Source: Pseudonocardia sp. SCN 73-27
GTDB lineage: Bacteria > Actinomycetota > Actinomycetes > Mycobacteriales > Pseudonocardiaceae
DNA: 64,000 bases
NCBI GenBank assembly: GCA_001725415.1
Contig: MEGH01000004.1
Coordinates: 223,377 to 287,376, forward strand
Direction of reading: 5' to 3'
Shown here: positions 2,741 through 53,217 of the stretch, piece by piece
How positions within the stretch are numbered: the stretch's first letter is position 1
How the letters are laid out: the number at the start of each line of letters is the position of its first letter
Translations under genes and position numbers: made by a program
The notes under the pieces: generated by a model
Seen by the model: the letters and a program-made list of their open reading frames with translations, nothing else
What the model was told of the DNA's origin: nothing
The model's database searches: none

Positions 2741-3082
2741 TCAGCGGGGTGCGTAGCCGACCCCGTCGAAGAGGCGGGACCGGCGGCGGCCGGCGGCCGG
2801 CACCGCGACGGCGGGACGGACCGGGGTCGGCGACACTTTGCCGACGATCTGCTCCGCCATGCCGTAGACCAGCGGCAGGGCACCGGAGAGGGTCCCACCC
2901 GAGCGGTTGATGTGCTCGACCCCCGGGCCGATGAGAGCGGCGTCCCGGTTGACCTGCTGGACGCTCTCCTCGCAGGTCTCGAGGTTCGTCGCGATCCTCG
3001 TCAGGAGCGTGCCCACCCGGAACAGGTAGAACGCCAGCCCGGCGATGAGCAGGACGATCACCACGACGGTCAGGACGATCAT
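2741..3082 (-). CDS. single-pass membrane miniprotein 5 of 5 (113 aa)
   Basis: Last gene of a tight leftward operon of five small membrane proteins. Residues 2-20 (VLTVVVIVLLIAGLAFYLF) form one transmembrane helix. A predicted amphipathic helix follows (RVGTLLTRIATNLETCEESVQQV), then a loop and a basic C-terminus. The ATG overlaps the stop of the preceding gene in ATGA (3079-3082), which fixes the start. I recognise no named family. The shared design of a membrane helix followed by a long helical tail suggests the five proteins are distant paralogues that assemble together. A longer in-frame ORF upstream is antisense or off-frame noise. Confidence 0.75.
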   Translation of the reverse strand: MIVLTVVVIVLLIAGLAFYLFRVGTLLTRIATNLETCEESVQQVNRDAALIGPGVEHINRSGGTLSGALPLVYGMAEQIVGKVSPTPVRPAVAVPAAGRRRSRLFDGVGYAPR

Positions 3083-3390
3083 CGGGACGCTCCGTTCGTG
3101 ACCGGGGCAGGGGCGGGGGTCGGGATCGACGGCAGGACCCGACCCAGGAACAGGTGGTGCTGCAGGCCCTCGGCGAGGACGCGGTCGACGGCGTCGCCGG
3201 TGGGGTCGATCAGCGCGGTCGACGCCGTGTTGGCGGCGACCTTCTCCAGCGTGCCCGTGATGTCGGTGACCCGGCGGTCGATGGTCTTGACCAGGTTCAC
3301 GAGCAGCTGCAGCAGGGCCGCGACGACGATGACGACGACGAACCCGGCGATGATCGCGATCCACCACGCGGTGGTGTCGGCGCTGGACAT
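3079..3390 (-). CDS. single-pass membrane miniprotein 4 of 5 (103 aa)
   Basis: The protein has a short N-terminus (MSSADTTAWW) and a transmembrane helix at about residues 11-30. A helical segment rich in Leu, Val and Thr follows (VNLVKTIDRRVTDITGTLEK), and the tail is Pro-rich (PSIPTPAPAPV). It begins 2 bp after the stop of miniprotein 3 and overlaps miniprotein 5 by 4 bp. The middle (ASTALIDPTGDAVDRVLAEG) resembles a periodic coiled-coil-like helix. Function unknown; context suggests a membrane module linked to the cox genes. Confidence 0.75.
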   Translation of the reverse strand: MSSADTTAWWIAIIAGFVVVIVVAALLQLLVNLVKTIDRRVTDITGTLEKVAANTASTALIDPTGDAVDRVLAEGLQHHLFLGRVLPSIPTPAPAPVTNGASR

Positions 3391-3392
3391 GA

Positions 3393-3635
3393 TCAGCCTC
3401 CCAGCCGGGCGCGGCCACGGGCGAGGCCCGCGGTGATGGTGTCGGCGAAGTCGATCGTCTCGGCCAGGGCGGCGAGCGGGCGGGTGTTGACCTCCGCCTG
3501 CTGCAGCCCGGCGTTGATCGACTGCGCCTGGCGACCGATCCGCGCGGCCAGCACCAGGATCGGCACCACCAGCGCGACGACGACGAGCACCACGACGATG
3601 CCGATCACGAACCCCACGATCCATCCGGTGCTCAT
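3393..3635 (-). CDS. single-pass membrane miniprotein 3 of 5 (80 aa)
   Basis: Residues 5-32 form a long hydrophobic helix (WIVGFVIGIVVVLVVVALVV and onward). The cytosolic helix ARIGRQAQSINAGLQQAE and a short tail (AGLARGRARLGG) follow. The ATG directly abuts the TAG of the preceding gene (3636-3638), so translation is almost certainly coupled. The tail shares an 'N-T/S-x-x-L-x-x-L' style pattern (NTRPLAALAE) with the neighbouring miniproteins. No family assignment. Confidence 0.75.
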   Translation of the reverse strand: MSTGWIVGFVIGIVVVLVVVALVVPILVLAARIGRQAQSINAGLQQAEVNTRPLAALAETIDFADTITAGLARGRARLGG

Positions 3636-3863
3636 CTAGACCCCCGCGCAGAAGTCGCGGACCGGCTTCAGGTTCGCATTCACCGAGGTGAGACGCGACG
3701 GGACGGGCGCGGTCGAGGCGACGATCGCGCCGACCCCGCCGTCGAGCGCGGCCAGGGTCTGCGAGACGTGCCGCAGGTGCAGGATCACCCGCAGCAGCCC
3801 GATCCCGGCGACGGCGATGATGAGGGCGGCGATGACGATCGTCGCCCACGCAGCAGCGGGCAC
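3636..3863 (-). CDS. single-pass membrane miniprotein 2 of 5 (75 aa)
   Basis: The GTG start lies one base after the TGA of miniprotein 1; a GAAGGAG ribosome site sits within the end of that gene. Residues 5-26 are hydrophobic (AWATIVIAALIIAVAGIGLL). The tail (LHLRHVSQTLAALDGGVGAI, then STAPVPSRLTSVNANLKPVR) is helical and polar. The motif P-V-P-S-x-L is shared with miniprotein 1 (DPVPSMLATTDA), which supports common ancestry. Function unknown. Confidence 0.73.
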   Translation of the reverse strand: MPAAAWATIVIAALIIAVAGIGLLRVILHLRHVSQTLAALDGGVGAIVASTAPVPSRLTSVNANLKPVRDFCAGV

Positions 3864-3864
3864 G

Positions 3865-4131
3865 TCAGTTCTCCTTCGGCGGCAACAGGACCGCGACGCT
3901 GCCCGCGTATCGGACGGCGCCGGCGGACACCTGGGCGACGGTCGCGTCGGTCGTCGCGAGCATGGAGGGGACGGGGTCGAGCGCGCCGGCCAGCTGCACG
4001 CCGCCGGCGAGGATGTCGTCGGCCGCCCAGCGGATGCGTTCGACGGCGGCGAGCACCCGGTTGAGCAGGGCGATCACCACCGGGAGCACCACGAGCAGCA
4101 GGACGGCGTTGCCGATCCACCACAGCACCAT
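3865..4131 (-). CDS. single-pass membrane miniprotein 1 of 5 (88 aa)
   Basis: First gene of the five-gene miniprotein operon. A strong AAAGGAGG ribosome site (minus strand, around 4141-4149) precedes the ATG and rules out the very long ORF that runs through this frame. Residues 3-22 form a transmembrane helix (LWWIGNAVLLLVVLPVVIAL). Next come an amphipathic helix (RVLAAVERIRWAADDI) and the P-V-P-S-M-L segment shared with miniprotein 2. It starts 68 bp after the end of coxG in the same direction, with palindrome copy 3 between. It may be part of the cox transcript by read-through, or a separate unit. Confidence 0.76.
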   Translation of the reverse strand: MVLWWIGNAVLLLVVLPVVIALLNRVLAAVERIRWAADDILAGGVQLAGALDPVPSMLATTDATVAQVSAGAVRYAGSVAVLLPPKEN

Positions 4132-4163: not shown

Positions 4164-4203
4164 GTGAGCGGCAATGGTCGCCATAGCGACCATTGCCGCT
4201 CAC
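4164..4203 (-). repeat. palindromic 3'-end element, copy 3
   Basis: Perfect 18-bp arms (gtgagcggcaatggtcgc) with a cata loop. It is minus-oriented: the CCCTG flank faces the leftward coxG gene, whose TGA lies within the element, exactly as in copy 1. It separates coxG from the membrane miniprotein operon and could terminate or attenuate transcription between them. Confidence 0.85.
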
Positions 4204-4790
4204 AGGGGTTGGACGGGACGCGTGCTCGGGCCGAAGAACCGGCGGGCCACCCGTTTCAGCGCCATGACTGCCGCCGACAGGGCGATCCGGAAACCGCTCG
4301 CCGGCGCCGCCCGGGTCACGACGACGGTGCCGCCGCGGGAGCGGGCCTCGGCGTTGGCGGCGATGCAGTCGGTGAAGGCACCCAGCAGGACGCTCGTGAC
4401 GTCGGAGATCATGCCGCGCCCGTACTGGGCGGCGGCGCCGGAGATCTGCAGGTCCTGCACCACGTGCATCGACGTCGCACCCGCACCGGCCGGCGCGAGC
4501 GTGGCCGTCACCGACATCTCGGCGGTGCCGCGGCCGCGGGCCTCGGACCCCGCGGCGTGCAGCACCATGGTGTGCGTCGACGCGTCCGACGTGCGGATCT
4601 CCGCGACGCCGGTGAACCGCAGCGACACCGGACCCATGCTGACCTTGACCCCGCCGGTGAACGAGCCGTCGGGCTGCTCCCCGGTGAGCTCCGCACCCGG
4701 CAGGCACGGGGCCAGCGCGGGGACGTCCTGCAGGAACTCCCAGACGTCGTCGAGCGGGGCGGCGAGGCGGAAGTCGTTCTCGATGAGCAT
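4200..4790 (-). CDS. coxG: CoxG, CO dehydrogenase-associated SRPBCC protein
   Basis: This 196-residue protein has the CoxG start (IENDFRLAAPLDDVWEFL) and the conserved DVPALAPCLPGAEL segment. A beta-rich SRPBCC lipid-binding fold extends to about residue 150. A basic amphipathic C-terminal extension follows (ALSAAVMALKRVARRFFGPS) that could bind membrane. CoxG proteins have been linked to membrane attachment and quinone supply for aerobic CO dehydrogenase. It starts 3 bp after the coxL stop and closes the minus-strand cox cassette. Its stop codon sits inside palindrome copy 3. Confidence 0.9.
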   Translation of the reverse strand: MLIENDFRLAAPLDDVWEFLQDVPALAPCLPGAELTGEQPDGSFTGGVKVSMGPVSLRFTGVAEIRTSDASTHTMVLHAAGSEARGRGTAEMSVTATLAPAGAGATSMHVVQDLQISGAAAQYGRGMISDVTSVLLGAFTDCIAANAEARSRGGTVVVTRAAPASGFRIALSAAVMALKRVARRFFGPSTRPVQPL

Positions 4791-4793
4791 CGC

Positions 4794-7202
4794 TCACTCC
4801 GTCCGGAAGGGAGGGGCGCCGGACACGTCGTCGCCGGTGTGGGCGGCGTGCCAGACGCGGTCGGGCAGCAGCGGCATGTCGATGTTGCGCACACCGGTGG
4901 GCCGCAGTGCGTTCATGACCGCGTTGACGTAGGCCGCGGGCCCGCCGACGGCCGCGCACTCGCCGACGCCCTTGGCGCCGATCGGGTGGTGCGGCGAGGG
5001 CGTGACGACCTCGTGCAGCTCGAAGCCCGGGGTCTCCCACGCCGTCGGCAGCAGATAGTCCATGTAGTTGGCGCCCACGAGGTTGCCGTCGGTGTCGTAG
5101 GTCTGGAACTGCATGTTCGACATCGCGTAGGCCTCGGTGAGGCCGCCCATGATCTGACCCTCGACGATCATCGGGTTGATCCGGACGCCGCAGTCGTCGA
5201 CGGCGACGAACCGCAGCACGTCCCACACCCCGGTCTCGGGGTCGACCTCGACCGTCGCGATGTAGCAGGCGAACGGCCAGGTCAGGTTGGGCGGGTCGTA
5301 GTAGGCGTTGTTCTCCAGGCCGGGTTCCATGCCGTCGGGCATGTTCGAGTACGCGGCCATCGCGCACTCCTGGATCGTCACGCCCCGGCTCTCGGCACCG
5401 CGGACGAAGAACCTGCCGAGCTCCCACTCGACGTCCTCCTCCAACACCTCCAGCAGGTGCGCGGCGAGCTTGCGCGCCTTGGCCCGGATCTTGCGGGCGA
5501 CCATCGCGGTGGCCGCCCCGGCGACCGGCGTCGACCGGGAGGCGTAGGTACCCATGCCGAACGGTGTGTGGTCGGTGTCGCCGTGCTCGACGACGATGTC
5601 GAGCGCCGGGATGCCGAGCTCGTGGGTGACGATCTGGGCGAAGGTCGTCTCGTGGCCCTGGCCCTGGGTCTGCGCACCGATCTTGAGGACGGCCTTGCCG
5701 GTCGGGTGCACCCGCAGCTCGGCGGAGTCGAACATCTTGATGCCGAGGATGTCGTACTCGCGGCTGTTGCCTGCCCCGAGCGGCTCGGTCATCGTCGAGA
5801 TCCCGATGCCCAGCAGCCGGCCCTGTTTGCGGGCCTCGGCCTGCTCGACGAGGAAGTCGTCGTAGCCGATCGCGTCGAGCCCCACCTGCAGGCACGTGAG
5901 GTACTGCCCGGAGTCGGTGAGGAACCCGAACGGCGTGCGGTAGGGGAACTGGTCGTCGCGGACGAGGTTGCGGCGCCGGAACTCGGCCTGGTCCATGCCG
6001 ATGTCGTCGGCGGCGGCCTGCATCATCCGTTCCTGGAAGAACATCGCCTCGGTGACCCGGAACGAGCACCGGTAGGCGACGCCACCGGGCGCCTTGTTGG
6101 TGTACATGCCCTGCGCGGTGATGTGGCCGACGGGCACGTCGTAGCAGGCGAACGACGAGTGCACGAGCCCGATCTTGAACTTCGTGGGCTGCGCGTCGGC
6201 GTAGAAGGCGCCCTGGTCGGTCGTGGCGTGGTAGCGGACGGCGAGGATCTTCCCGTCGCGGGTCAGCGCCATCTCCGAGTCGAGGTACATGTCGCGGCCG
6301 AACCCGGTCGACGACAGGTTCCCGGTGTTGTCCTCGATCCACTTCACCGGTTTCGCGGTGAGGATCGAGCACAGGATCGCGCAGACGTAGCCGGGGTAGA
6401 CCGGGACCTTGTTGCCGAACCCGCCCCCGACGTCGGGGGAGATGATCCGGATCATGTGCTCGGGCAGCTCGGCGATCAGCGCGACGGCCGCCCGCACGAT
6501 GTGCGGGGCCTGGCTCGTCAGGTAGACGGTGAGCTTGCCGGTGGCGTTGTTGAAGTCCGCGACCGCGCCGCAGTTCTCGATCGGCGACGGGTGGCTGCGC
6601 GGGTAGTGCAGCCGCAGCGTCGACACGACGTCGGCACGGGCGAACGCCGCGTCGGTGCCGGCCTTGTCGCCGACCTCCCAGCTGTAGGCGACGTTGTCGG
6701 CCTGGCCCGCCTTGTCGTCGCGGATCAGCGGTGCACCGGGCGCGAGCGCTTGCTCGGGGTTCACGATCGGGGGCAGCGGCTCGTACTCGACGACGATCGC
6801 GTCGCACGCGTCCTTGGCGATGTAGGGGTCCTCGGCGACGACGCAGGCGACCTCCTGACCCTGGAACCGCACCTTGTCGGTGGCGAGGACGGCCTGGGTG
6901 TCGTAGGACAGCGTCGGCATCCAGGCGAGGTTGCGCTGCGCGGCCATCTCACCGGTCAGCACCAGCTTGACGCCCGGAACCGCCCAGGCCGCGCTGGTGT
7001 CGATCGACTTGATCCGGGCGTGCGCGAGCGGGCTGCGCAGGATCTCCATGTGCAGCATGCCCGGCAGCGTCACGTCCTCGACGTAGTTGCCGCGGCCGCG
7101 GATGAACCGGGCGTCCTCGACGCGCGGCCGGCTCGACCCGAGCCCGCCGATCTTGACCTCGTCGAGCGCCTGGGACGCGGCGGGCTCAGCTGTCGCCGTC
7201 AC
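4794..7202 (-). CDS. coxL: form I CO dehydrogenase large subunit (cassette 1)
   Basis: 802-residue molybdopterin-containing catalytic subunit of aerobic CO dehydrogenase, oxidising CO to CO2. Residues 376-382 read AYRCSFR, the exact form I active-site signature; the Cys (379) would hold the Cu of the Mo-Cu centre. The GGGFGNK molybdopterin-binding motif is near residues 259-265. Near the C-terminus, GAKGVGE supplies the catalytic Glu. The GTG start overlaps the coxS stop in GTGA (7199-7202), fixing the start; the in-frame extension upstream is spurious. Gene order is M-S-L-G, and the length fits the family. This cassette looks fully functional for CO oxidation. Confidence 0.95.
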
Positions 7203-7705
7203 TGGGCCTCCTTCTCGGCCGCCCACCGGACGGCCTTGACGATGTTCTGGTAGCCGGTGCAGCGGCAGAGGTTCCCCGACAGGCCCCACCGGATCTCGTC
7301 CTCGGACGGATCGGGGTTGCGGTTCAGCAGGGCGCGGGCGGCCAGCATCATGCCGGGCGTGCAGAACCCGCACTGCAGGCCGTGCTCGGCTGCAAAGCCC
7401 TCCTGCACCGGGTCGAGCTCGCTGGGCGTGCCCAGTCCCTCGACCGTCGTCACCTCGTGCCCGTCGGCCTGGACGGCCAGCATCGTGCAGGACTTCACGG
7501 GCGCGCCGTCGTAGAGGACGGTGCAGGCGCCGCAGTTCGTGGTGTCGCAGCCGACGTGGGTGCCGGTGAGCGCGAGGCCCTGGCGCAGCAGGTGCGCGAG
7601 CAGCAGCCGGGGCTCGACCTCGGCGACGCGGCGTTCGCCGTTGACGGTCACGGTGATGCGCCGGGTCGGGACCTCGGTCTCCGCGACGGGTTCGGTGGCA
7701 GTCAT
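7199..7705 (-). CDS. coxS: CO dehydrogenase small [2Fe-2S] subunit (cassette 1)
   Basis: 168 residues. The N-terminal plant-type ferredoxin domain has [11 protein letters not shown] and a later KSC for the first cluster. The C-terminal helical domain has CGFCTPGM and CRCTGYQNI for the second. These carry electrons from the Mo-Cu site of CoxL to the FAD of CoxM. A GGAGG site lies 4 bp before the ATG at 7703-7705; a TTG one codon earlier is less likely. It overlaps coxL by 4 bp and follows coxM by 18 bp. Confidence 0.95.
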
Positions 7706-7723
7706 CAATCCTCCGTTGGACCC

Positions 7724-8599
7724 TCAGGCCGCCGCGCCGGCAGGCGCGCGTTCGGCGGTCAGGATGCGGCGCACGAACGTCGCGACGACGTGGCGCTTGT
7801 AGTCGGCGGTGCCGCGGTGGTCGGTGCGGGGCCGGGCGACGGCGGCGGCCAGGTCGGCGGCGCGGTCGACGACGTCAGGGTCCAGCCGGGATCCGACGAG
7901 CGTCTGCGCGGCCTCGGTCGCGGCGATCGTCGCCGGGCCGACACCGGTCAGCGCAATGCCCGCCCGCACGACCTCCTCTCCGACGGACTCCAGCGCGACC
8001 GCGACGCCGGCCGTCGCGAAGTCGCCGACACGGCGTTCCAGCTTCAGGTACGAACCGGACCGGGCACCCTGAGCCGCAGGGACGACGGCCTCGACAGCGA
8101 TCTCGTCGTACTCCAGCGCGTTCTGGAAGGTGCCGACGACGAACTCGCCGACCGGGATGGTCCGGCGCCCGCGGGCGCTCGTGGCGACGACCGAGCCGCC
8201 GAGGGCGAGCATCACCGAGGCCCAGTCGCCCTGCGGGTCGGCGTGGCACAGCGATCCGACGAGCGTGCCGCGGGTGCGCACGATCGGATCGGCCACGAGC
8301 GGTGCGGCGGCGGCCATCGTCGGCTGGGCGCCGGGCAGGACCGTGGAGTGTTCGAGATCGACGTGGCGGCACAGCGCGCCGACGCGCATGCCGCCGCCGG
8401 GGGTCTCCTCGTGGTGTCCGAGACCTTCCAGACCGTTGATGTCGACGAGCACACCCGGCGCGGCGAAGCGCAGCTTCATCATCGGCACCAGGCTCTGGCC
8501 GCCGGCGAGGATCTTCGCCTCGTCGCCGTGCTCTGCGAGCAGCGCGAGGGCCTCGTCGAGGGTGCGGGGTGCCTCGTAGCGGAAGCGGGACGGGTACAT
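7724..8599 (-). CDS. coxM: CO dehydrogenase FAD subunit (cassette 1)
   Basis: 291-residue medium subunit that passes electrons from CoxS to the respiratory quinone pool. FAD-binding motifs are AGGQSLVPMMKLR (residues about 32-44) and TLVGSLCHADPQGD (about 111-124), characteristic of the CoxM/CutM family. The C-terminal domain ends with TADYKRHVVATFVRR, also typical. The ATG overlaps the stop of the small upstream gene in ATGA (8597-8601), so it is coupled to it. Confidence 0.94.
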   Translation of the reverse strand: MYPSRFRYEAPRTLDEALALLAEHGDEAKILAGGQSLVPMMKLRFAAPGVLVDINGLEGLGHHEETPGGGMRVGALCRHVDLEHSTVLPGAQPTMAAAAPLVADPIVRTRGTLVGSLCHADPQGDWASVMLALGGSVVATSARGRRTIPVGEFVVGTFQNALEYDEIAVEAVVPAAQGARSGSYLKLERRVGDFATAGVAVALESVGEEVVRAGIALTGVGPATIAATEAAQTLVGSRLDPDVVDRAADLAAAVARPRTDHRGTADYKRHVVATFVRRILTAERAPAGAAA

Positions 8600-10469: not shown

Positions 10470-12874
10470 CCGGCACCCTCGAGGGGTGCGCGGGGCCGGG
10501 CTTCGGCTCGGTCCCGCGCAAGGAGGACGGGCGCTTCGTCCGCGGCCGCGGCCGGTTCGTCGACGACATCGCCCTGCCCGGGATGCTGCACGGCGCCGTG
10601 CTGCGCAGCCCTTACGCGCACGCCCGGATCCGGGCGGTCGACGCGACCGCCGCGGAGTCGCACCCCAAGGTCCGCGCCGTCATCACCGGCGAGACGCTGG
10701 CCGCGCGTGGCATGGCGTGGATGCCGACGTTCTCCCACGACGTCGCGGCCGTCCTGGCCACCGACAAGGTCCGCTACCAGGGCCAGGAGGTGGCGTTCGT
10801 CGTCGCCGAGGACCGCTACGCCGCCCGCGACGCCCTCGCGCTGATCGACGTCGACTACGAGCCGCTCCCGCCGGTCGTCGACGCGCGGCTCGCGCTCTCG
10901 CCGGAGGCCCCGGTGATCCGGGACGACCTTCTCGACAGGACCGACAACCACGTCTTCGACTGGGAGACCGGCGACGCCGACGCCACCGCAGCCCTGTTCG
11001 CCCGCGCCGCGCACGTCTCCGAGTGCGATCTCGTCTACCCACGGGTGCACCCGGCGCCGCTGGAGACGTGCGGGACCGTCGCCGACTTCGACCGCATCTC
11101 CGGCAAGCTCACCGTCCACGCCACCGCGCAGGCCCCGCACGCCCACCGGATGCTCTACGCCCGGATCGCCGGGATTCCCGAACACCGCATCCGGATCATC
11201 GCGCCCGACATCGGTGGCGGCTTCGGCAACAAGGTCGGCATGTACCCCGGCTACCTGTGCGCCGTCGTCGGCTCGATCGTCACCGGTGCGCCGGTCAAGT
11301 GGGTGGAGGACCGCTCCGAGAACCTGATGAGCACCTCGTTCGCGCGCGACTTCCACATGCACGGCGAGATCGCCGCCGACGCCGACGGCCACATCCTCGC
11401 CATCCGCGTCTCGGTGCTCGCCGACCACGGCGCCTTCAACGCGACCGCCCAGCCGTCGAAGTTCCCGGCCGGCTTCTTCGGCGTCTTCACCGGCTCCTAC
11501 GACATCGCTGCCGCGCACTGCCGGGTCACCGGCGTCTACACCAACAAGGCGCCCGGGGGAGTGGCCTACGCCTGCTCGTTCCGCGTCACCGAGGCCGTCT
11601 ACCTGGTCGAACGGCTCGTCGACGTGCTCGCCCGCGACACCGGCCGCGACGCCGCCGAGCTGCGGATGGCCAACCTGCTCACTCCAGACCGGTTCCCGTT
11701 CCGCAGCGCGACGGGCTGGGAGTACGACTCCGGCGACTACCCGCGGGCGCTGCGGACCGCACTGGAGATGGCCGACTACCCGTCGGTGCGCGCCGAGCAG
11801 AAGGACCGGTGGGCGGCCTTCGAGCGCACCGGGAAGGGCCCGCTCACCGGCGTCGGGATGAGCGTCTTCACCGAGGCCGTCGGCGCCGGGCCGCGGCGGC
11901 TCATGGACATCATGGGCCTCGGCATGGCCGACGGTGCCGAGCTGCGCGTGCACCCCACCGGCAGCGCCGTGCTGCGGCTGTCGTGCATGAGCCAGGGGCA
12001 GGGCCACGAGACGACGTTCGCCCAGATCGTCTCCCACGAGCTCGGGCTGCCCGTCGACGCCGTCGAGGTGATCCAGGGCGACACCGACAACACCCCGTTC
12101 GGCCTGGGCACCTACGGCTCCCGCTCCACGCCCGTCTCCGGCGCGGCGGCGTCGGTCGCGGCGGGCAAGGTCCGCGAACAGGCCCGGCAGGTCGCCGCTG
12201 TGCTCCTCGAGGTCGCTGCCGACGACCTGCGCTGGGACGTCGGCACCGGAACCGCCGACGGCGGCAGCTTCTCGGTCGCCGGCGTGCCCGGGGTCTCGGT
12301 CAGCCTGCGCGAGATCGCCATGGCCGCCCACGGCGGGCTCGACCTGCCGGACGGCGTCGAGGGCCAGCTCGCCGCCTCCACCGTCTACAACCCGCCCAAC
12401 CTGACGTTCCCCTTCGGCGCCTACGTCTGCGTCGTCGACGTCGACCCCGGCACCGGCGAGGTCGAGGTGCGGCGGTTCGTCGCCGTCGACGACTGCGGCG
12501 TCCGGATCAACCCGATGATCGTCGAGGGGCAGATCCACGGCGGCCTCGCCGACGGCATCGGCATGGCGCTCATGGAGCTCGTCGCGTTCGACGACGACGG
12601 CAACCACCTCTCCGCCTCGTTCATGGACTACCTGCTGCCCACGGCCATGGAGTGCCCGCCGTGGGAGCTGGCCGCGACCGTCACCCCGTCGCCGCACCAT
12701 CCCCTGGGCGCCAAGGGCGTCGGCGAGTCGGCGACCGTCGGGTCCCCGCCCGCCGTCGTCAACGCCGTCCTCGACGCCATCGGCGTCCGCCACGCGGACA
12801 TGCCGCTGACCCCCGCCCACGTCTGGCGCGCCCTGCAGGGCCGCCCGATCCGGCCCGACATCGCGATCAGGTGA
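10466..12874 (+). CDS. coxL: form I-like CO dehydrogenase large subunit (cassette 2)
   Basis: 802 residues, exactly the length of the cassette 1 CoxL. Residues 367-373 read AYACSFR: it keeps the Cys (370) and SFR of the form I signature but has Ala where cassette 1 and classical enzymes have Arg. The GGGFGNK pterin motif and the C-terminal GAKGVGES Glu are present. The enzyme should still bind Mo, and Cu through the Cys, but the Arg-to-Ala change beside the copper ligand could alter substrate preference or affinity. The GTG start overlaps the coxS stop. The gene is followed 7 bp later by the XdhC-YHS gene. Confidence 0.93.
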   Translation: MTGTLEGCAGPGFGSVPRKEDGRFVRGRGRFVDDIALPGMLHGAVLRSPYAHARIRAVDATAAESHPKVRAVITGETLAARGMAWMPTFSHDVAAVLATDKVRYQGQEVAFVVAEDRYAARDALALIDVDYEPLPPVVDARLALSPEAPVIRDDLLDRTDNHVFDWETGDADATAALFARAAHVSECDLVYPRVHPAPLETCGTVADFDRISGKLTVHATAQAPHAHRMLYARIAGIPEHRIRIIAPDIGGGFGNKVGMYPGYLCAVVGSIVTGAPVKWVEDRSENLMSTSFARDFHMHGEIAADADGHILAIRVSVLADHGAFNATAQPSKFPAGFFGVFTGSYDIAAAHCRVTGVYTNKAPGGVAYACSFRVTEAVYLVERLVDVLARDTGRDAAELRMANLLTPDRFPFRSATGWEYDSGDYPRALRTALEMADYPSVRAEQKDRWAAFERTGKGPLTGVGMSVFTEAVGAGPRRLMDIMGLGMADGAELRVHPTGSAVLRLSCMSQGQGHETTFAQIVSHELGLPVDAVEVIQGDTDNTPFGLGTYGSRSTPVSGAAASVAAGKVREQARQVAAVLLEVAADDLRWDVGTGTADGGSFSVAGVPGVSVSLREIAMAAHGGLDLPDGVEGQLAASTVYNPPNLTFPFGAYVCVVDVDPGTGEVEVRRFVAVDDCGVRINPMIVEGQIHGGLADGIGMALMELVAFDDDGNHLSASFMDYLLPTAMECPPWELAATVTPSPHHPLGAKGVGESATVGSPPAVVNAVLDAIGVRHADMPLTPAHVWRALQGRPIRPDIAIR

Positions 12875-32656: not shown

Positions 32657-32696
32657 GTGAGTGGCGATGGTCGCCATGACGACCATCGCCGCTGAC
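32657..32696 (+). repeat. palindromic 3'-end element, copy 4 (degenerate)
   Basis: The left arm gtgagtggcgatggtcgc pairs with 32679-32696 with three mismatches; the loop is catg. Flanks GCCTG and CGACC are conserved, giving plus orientation after the rightward SDR gene. It is the only copy whose arms are losing complementarity. Confidence 0.75.
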
Positions 32697-43391: not shown

Positions 43392-43430
43392 GTGAGCGGT
43401 GATGGTCGCCGTGCGACCATCACCGCTCAC
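43392..43430 (+). repeat. palindromic 3'-end element, copy 5
   Basis: Perfect 18-bp arms (gtgagcggtgatggtcgc) with a 3-base loop (cgt), 6 bp after the hydrolase stop. Flanks ACCTG and CGACC give plus orientation. The T and G at arm positions 9-10 (TG here, TA or CA elsewhere) are matched by compensatory bases in the other arm. Confidence 0.85.
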
Positions 43431-53177: not shown

Positions 53178-53217
53178 GTGAGTGGCAATGGTCGCTGTCG
53201 CGACCATTGCCACTCAC
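53178..53217 (-). repeat. palindromic 3'-end element, copy 6
   Basis: Perfect 18-bp arms (gtgagtggcaatggtcgc) around a tgtc loop. The CCCTG flank is on the minus strand, 6 bp from the stop of the leftward DUF1348 gene. Arm position 6 has T here (C in copies 1-3 and 5) with a matching A opposite. Confidence 0.85.

Follow-up and report, generated by a model that had tools for sequence, protein, structure and literature searches.

How electrons pass from the cytoplasmic enzymes that oxidise atmospheric CO and H2 to the quinone of the membrane is an open question, and it is raised directly by a locus of Pseudonocardia sp. SCN 73-27. The window analysed here, a 64,000-nucleotide stretch of contig MEGH01000004.1, carries on its minus strand the CO dehydrogenase (CODH) genes in the order coxM-coxS-coxL-coxG, followed by five very short genes, here called A to E. 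An earlier note had described these as five single-pass membrane proteins packed directly after coxG on the same strand, and had proposed that they form an undescribed docking or scaffold complex for CODH. Their lengths in amino acids (aa) and their spacing were confirmed: A (88 aa, 3865–4131), B (75 aa, GTG start, 3636–3863), C (80 aa, 3393–3635), D (103 aa, 3079–3390) and E (113 aa, 2741–3082) are separated by gaps of 1, 0, 2 and −4 bp, and 68 bp lie between coxG and A. Judged by profile comparison, A to E are orthologous to five small proteins of [NiFe]-hydrogenase clusters, and a module common to several trace-gas enzymes replaces the CODH-only reading. Its function is probably, though by no means certainly, that of a hetero-oligomeric membrane scaffold which docks cytoplasmic trace-gas dehydrogenases for electron transfer to menaquinone.

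A to E are real genes. Ratios of non-synonymous to synonymous substitution (dN/dS, NG86 method) against two relatives were 0.06–0.41 for A to E and 0.09–0.22 for coxG, and chance open reading frames are ruled out by these values together with synteny. No known family was recognised: none of the window's five proteins passes the curated Pfam cut-off, nor does any of 54 A, 53 E and nine B, C or D proteins, and the NCBIfam cut-off gave no match for the window's five or for four hydrogenase-linked relatives. Assignment to a known DUF or Pfam family was rejected, as the matches (e.g. DUF2561, DUF6007, ATP-synt_B) were all sub-threshold.

The single N-terminal transmembrane (TM) helix proposed for each protein was found again as one N-terminal hydrophobic segment in the 75–77 distinct sequences of every family; a second hydrophobic window above the cut occurs in no member of A, C or D, in two of B and in six of E. 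Lysine plus arginine averages 0.01–0.39 residues before the TM helix vs 1.4–4.1 in the 20 residues after it across the five families, and is higher after than before in 371 of 379 sequences (A 76/77, B 76/77, C 73/75, D 75/75, E 71/75). Because of this enrichment the tails should face the cytoplasm. CODH itself is taken to be cytoplasmic. The tails had also been described as helical, and most of them behave so: a periodicity of 3.45–3.55 residues, averaged over the alignment, is strong in E, B and A (equalled in 0, 0 and 1 of 2000 shuffles) and moderate in C (32 of 2000). AlphaFold2 single-chain models, which cover A and E, gave for E one helix of about 80 residues (2–83) with a loose tail (mean pLDDT 81.7, pTM 0.35) and for A a kinked helix (2–51 and 54–82; pLDDT 94.1, pTM 0.50). 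In A the predicted cytoplasmic helix is kinked at a PVP break and leads to a conserved RYAGSVAxLL end; B and C each have a helical tail, ending in SVNAxLKPVRDF and GLxRGRxRLGG respectively; the tail of D holds the motif VLAEGLxHHLFLGRV; and in E the TM helix runs on as one long amphipathic helix, followed by the basic tail PASGRRRSRL.

The set proved to be a conserved partner of coxMSL-coxG, as the earlier note had supposed, within one lineage of CoxL. A is present in 20 of 62 genomes of the genus Pseudonocardia, and 18 of those 20 are exactly the 18 genomes (19 places) whose CoxL is at least 82% identical to that of the window. All 17 loci of other genomes with A and this type-1 CoxL (L003–L019) read coxL-coxG-A; the five genes are complete in 16 of them, and L007 breaks off within B. 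A was found in none of the nine genus genomes that hold only the other CoxL lineage (58–60% identity, E up to 1e-200). An A-profile scan of a collection of 84,980 genomes confirmed 101 places, and the counts that follow rest on 80 of these, the named loci, which share Pseudonocardia genomes with the genus loci and come from Pseudonocardia, Amycolatopsis, Nocardioides, Frankia, Kineosporia, Trebonia, Acidimicrobiales and others. All five genes occur in the same order in 76 of the 80, the remaining four running off the contig; coxG lies directly upstream of A in 78 (the exceptions are L106, which starts at A, and L107), and coxL is present in 75. A check of gene neighbourhoods across Actinomycetota thus found the order coxG-A-B-C-D-E kept in 76/76 complete named loci. 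The set of L107 (1–2600) is of the CODH type and stands alone, with no coxG in the 1.1 kb upstream and preceded by an open reading frame that looks, by eye, like a regulator. When 296 genomes of the class were sampled by coxL instead, 11 more type-1 loci came to light, ten of which carry the set (with three to five of the five families listed per locus, since an overlap filter hid some neighbours); the eleventh, L164, ends soon after coxL. A to E were absent from all nine type-2 coxL loci examined (9 of 40 places).

The two genus genomes with A and no type-1 CoxL (G021 and G023) point beyond CODH. In both, A-B lie on one side and C-D-E on the other side of [NiFe]-hydrogenase genes. The nearest structure in the PDB to their large subunit, P0007, is 5aa5 (E 2.1e-141, 476 bits), a group 1h enzyme according to the accessible text of PMC9561532. 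P0007 is only 38–42% identical to the hydrogenases found in 58 of the 296 genomes of the class; these are called group-1h-like here, a label resting on the one tested member, L178, for which 5aa5 is the best PDB match at 1093 bits. Among 396 genomes of the phylum, 18 matched P0007 (E up to 1e-160), and 20 loci were examined, covering 21 of 27 places. Profiles built from CODH-linked proteins alone match in 16 of these 20 loci, in four of them to D alone. Profiles that include hydrogenase-linked sequences, which are circular for L215–L234 and not for L264–L266, find all five families in ten (L215, L216, L217, L218, L225, L226, L227, L229, L230 and L233), and gave no match in 35 control loci (638 kb). 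Genes hydS and hydL enclose all five, arranged C-D-E-A-B, in L225, L226, L227, L229 and, as an independent case, L264; L265 and L266 have the five next to a single hydrogenase subunit gene, where the contig ends. L231 and L234 gave no match, but their flanking sequence is short. The group-1h-like hydrogenase was rejected as a usual host: A to E occur in 0 of 20 loci fetched as such, out of 58 genomes with a match, L233 being the exception. A CoxG profile found nothing in 28 hydrogenase loci, module carriers included, and the module is therefore not merely an anchor for CoxG.

Correspondence between the two sets is one to one. Profile-profile comparison of CODH-linked with hydrogenase-linked families paired A with A through to E with E at 98.8–99.7% probability, a result favoured by the way in which the hydrogenase-linked proteins had been assigned to families, namely by the CODH profile that each matched best; reversed-sequence controls stayed below 6%. 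Like pairing has independent support because the A-B and C-D-E blocks are conserved in both systems. The hydrogenase-linked sets hold some odd members: two long coiled proteins of L218, one of L067, and an L068 protein which was placed in E and is B by position. An artefact of TM composition is ruled out by the reversed sequences and the empty control loci. As to relationships among the five, whose shared motifs had suggested paralogy to the earlier note, the CODH-linked profiles alone gave C-D at 97%, A-C at 20% and B-E at 25%; once hydrogenase-linked profiles were brought in, the pairs A-C, A-D and B-E reached 81–96%. Two paralogous groups, {A, C, D} and {B, E}, are thus likely, C-D being the clear case; one equal family of five is unsupported.

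On this common core the ends of D and E differ with the enzyme. HHLF is present in 84/84 D proteins linked to type-1 CODH vs 0/23 linked to hydrogenase or other genes, and R[RQ]SR in 78/82 E proteins (one fragment of 83 dropped) vs 0/15, counts that take some genomes twice owing to the overlap of named and genus loci. A docking scaffold would need just such a combination of shared core and enzyme-specific ends, and these conserved ends of D and E are candidate CODH-docking sites.

The module also occurs in further settings. A module-first search showed that at least 36 other genomes of the 396 have A. Type-1 CoxL at 80–82% identity accompanies it in L237, L238, L240, L241, L242, L245 and L246, and CoxL at 74% in L261 (in line) and L258 (within 20 kb, on the other strand); L252 has the module and coxG at a contig start. 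The module lies near hydrogenase or hyp genes in L239, L243, L244, L247–L251 and L264–L267, beside RuBisCO in L254, and on short contigs in L253, L255, L256 and L260; L257 and L259, and the weak set of L268, have no cox, hydrogenase or RuBisCO neighbour within 20 kb. In G084 the five genes sit amid RuBisCO, PRK and FBPase genes (Pfam), and another contig encodes a hydrogenase large subunit with 73% identity to P0007. RuBisCO large-subunit genes adjoin the module in L067 and L254, which suggests a link between trace-gas oxidation and carbon fixation. L068 (2709–6013) holds relatives of all five genes and the gene of a membrane-type protein of 520 aa; its genome, 82% complete, gave no coxL at E 1e-150 and no P0007-type hydrogenase at E 1e-20. 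The modules of L067 (5325–6643), L248, L252, L257 and L261 have as possible extra partners longer proteins in which a single membrane segment is combined with a repetitive helical stretch.

The hydrogenase, RuBisCO and isolated contexts, in which the five genes occur without cox genes, rule out a module restricted to CODH. What stands of the docking set first proposed is the conserved partnership and the predicted cytoplasmic tails; the set is not confined to CODH, and it is in part already described, five proteins of this kind being in print as HylTM1-5 (see below).

In L262 and L263 a different CoxL lineage is found with the module order C-D-E-A-B. A FastTree tree of 52 CoxL sequences places both with the other CoxL lineage (support 1.0), and in an IQ-TREE tree of the concatenated module they form with L259 a group (100) that is separate from the main CODH set (100). 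Several deep branches of the module tree are weak (28–79), FastTree puts L262 and L263 next to the main set at 0.61, and L233 and L248 mix copies in it, as the best copy per locus was taken. The trees suggest that the module may have been taken up twice, separately, by CODH lineages.

Matching five-protein sets beside CODH and high-affinity hydrogenases suggest a shared device for tying soluble trace-gas enzymes to the membrane. The five would assemble, bind the enzyme and serve quinone reduction in the following way. A to E would be subunits of one hetero-oligomer, orthologous to HylTM1-5, each with its N-terminal helix in the cytoplasmic membrane (N-terminus outside) and an amphipathic helix reaching into the cytoplasm, where the helices would pack as a stalk. 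For CODH, CoxMSL would be held at the membrane by the HHLFLGR end of D and the basic PASGRRRSRL end of E, and its electrons would pass to menaquinone, probably via CoxG.

Several observations weigh against this. The form-I CODH of Afipia carboxidovorans OM5 lacks the set and, as many form-I CODHs and group-1h-like hydrogenases do without it, it must be dispensable for the chemistry. In L233 (3608–4600) C-D-E adjoin a large subunit only 39% identical to P0007, so that the split from group-1h-like enzymes is not absolute; the same locus also holds a full C-D-E-A-B set and a large subunit with 53% identity. No match to A to E was found in L219 and L220, although their hydrogenase genes are of the kind that elsewhere carries the module, and in L067, L107, L254, L257 and L259 the module is either isolated or next to Calvin-cycle genes. 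The enzyme-specific ends are not universal with CODH: L261 and its relative L252 (the cox1b set) keep HHLF and lack RRSR, and L262 and L263 (cox2) have neither end. Periodicity in the tail of D is weak (106 of 2000 shuffles). Foldseek found no match in the PDB for the AlphaFold2 model of A, and HucM, the scaffold of the hydrogenase Huc, gave neither a sequence match to the A or E profiles nor a fold match to the model of A.

A bolder form of the scaffold reading is conceivable, if doubtful: an enzyme-independent five-subunit stalk, the hetero-oligomeric counterpart of HucM, would have entered at least two CODH lineages, the group 1l and 1m hydrogenases (classes assigned here by gene arrangement and content, not by a hydrogenase tree) and perhaps Calvin-cycle gene sets in separate acquisitions, and would join whichever dehydrogenase has the right docking ends to the menaquinone pool.

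Rather unlikely is a special case of the scaffold reading in which menaquinone would travel to the enzyme through a hydrophobic tube made of A to E, on the model proposed for HucM, and CoxG would act as the loader. The amphipathic helices of most subunits would suit a tube, the E profile has its best resemblance in the PDB to designed coiled coils (E 2.8e-5), and the accessible text of PMC10017518 supplies the precedent; however, CoxG already has a reported menaquinone-binding role (accessible text of PMC13240472), and the weak periodicity of D fits a tube poorly.

That the five form a membrane-bound platform for maturation or assembly, inserting metal or cofactor and taking no part in the working enzyme, is improbable. 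The hydrogenase-linked copies do lie amid hyp and CooC-like maturation genes, and OM5 has genes of maturation type (MoxR, VWA, XdhC) between coxL and coxG, but related enzymes with the same maturation requirements lack the set, and none of the five belongs to a Pfam family above cut-off. The cofactors of CODH and [NiFe]-hydrogenase are, moreover, unrelated.

It is quite improbable, finally, that the module organises the membrane in general in starved or lithotrophic cells, being co-regulated with trace-gas enzymes and making no contact with them, for although the stand-alone and RuBisCO-linked copies (L067, L107, L254, L257, L259) and the longer helical membrane proteins beside some modules would fit it, the hydS-hydL placement, the strong bias towards certain enzyme lineages and the enzyme-specific ends of D and E point to contact.

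The rest of the first cox operon, also on the minus strand, is as follows. The gene coxG (4200–4790) encodes an SRPBCC-type protein (Pfam COXG PF06240, E 3.7e-13) with the basic C-terminal tail that the earlier note had seen, at least four lysine or arginine residues being present among the last 30 in 84/84 relatives. The coxL gene (4794–7202, start codon inferred) belongs to the type-1 lineage and its product contains the form-I motif AYRCSFR; coxS (7199–7708) was assigned as an open reading frame whose relatives adjoin coxL, and coxM (7724–8599) from its open reading frame and relatives. Divergent from this operon, on the plus strand, is a second form-I coxL of the other lineage (10499–12835, AYACSFR); the head-to-head pair recurs in many relatives. 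A perfect palindrome with 18-bp arms (4164–4203) occupies the coxG-A gap and overlaps the coxG stop codon, and another of the same family (2697–2736) lies just past the end of E, so that one copy flanks the A to E block at each end. Six near-identical copies, with arms of about 18 bp, occur in the window (the others at 1573–1612, 32657–32696, 43392–43430 and 53178–53217), giving 12 half-sites where 0.12 would be expected by chance. The copy at 4164–4203 is a possible attenuator or repetitive extragenic palindromic (REP)-like element, and the family as a whole is possibly REP-like or a terminator.

Among known systems, HucM of the group 2a enzyme Huc is described in the accessible text of PMC10017518 as an all-helical scaffold; it forms the oligomer of Huc, and also a hydrophobic tube leading to the membrane. 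It is a precedent for the scaffold reading, since it shows that a hydrogenase can be joined to membrane and menaquinone by helical scaffolding. It resembles the present set in being all-helical, in being encoded within a hydrogenase operon and in connecting the enzyme with membrane and quinone, but differs in being the product of one gene, in four copies per complex and peripherally associated with the membrane. CoxG, reported to bind menaquinone for CODH (accessible text of PMC13240472, citing Kropp et al. 2025), is encoded next to A to E and belongs to an unrelated sequence family.

Group 1m [NiFe]-hydrogenase clusters contain two small single-TM proteins of 82–92 aa (accessible text of PMC9561532). 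L053 matches the gene content published for 1m (protease, NifU, CbiA/CooC-like ATPase, TPR, BPL_C, DUF1059), and its two small single-TM proteins are A and B. C, D and E, which find no mention in the accessible part of that paper, lie across the hydrogenase genes from A-B; together, A-B and C-D-E make the set of 1m-like clusters complete.

The closest known relatives are HylTM1-5, five short TM proteins encoded between the subunit genes of the group 1l hydrogenase (accessible text of PMC9561532, credited there to Ortiz et al. 2021). Like them, the window's A to E are five short proteins, each with one predicted TM helix and encoded together, and they match one to one the five proteins of the hydS-hydL loci L225, L226, L227, L229 and L264; the identity of these with HylTM rests on the gene arrangement in the accessible part of the paper, homology having been computed on the L loci and not on the paper's own sequences. 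A plasmid search for group 1l returned 12 records, at no more than 43.2% identity. The window's set differs in following coxG, not lying between hydrogenase subunit genes, in its order (A-B-C-D-E vs C-D-E-A-B) and in the CODH-linked ends of D and E. No P0007-type hydrogenase large subunit was found in its genome at E 1e-20, and with its position after coxG this makes the set a CODH-linked orthologue, not a hydrogenase component. In the literature searched, which leaves subscription journals mostly outside so that novelty is unproven, no paper was found whose title or accessible text ties such proteins to CODH, the name HylTM appears in PMC9561532 only, and 'coxG' is absent from that paper. The HylTM proteins thus gain a second, independent system and, with the same five proteins beside two unrelated enzymes, a common membrane interface becomes directly testable: the module known by name, in that literature, only from the group 1l hydrogenase has a CODH version.
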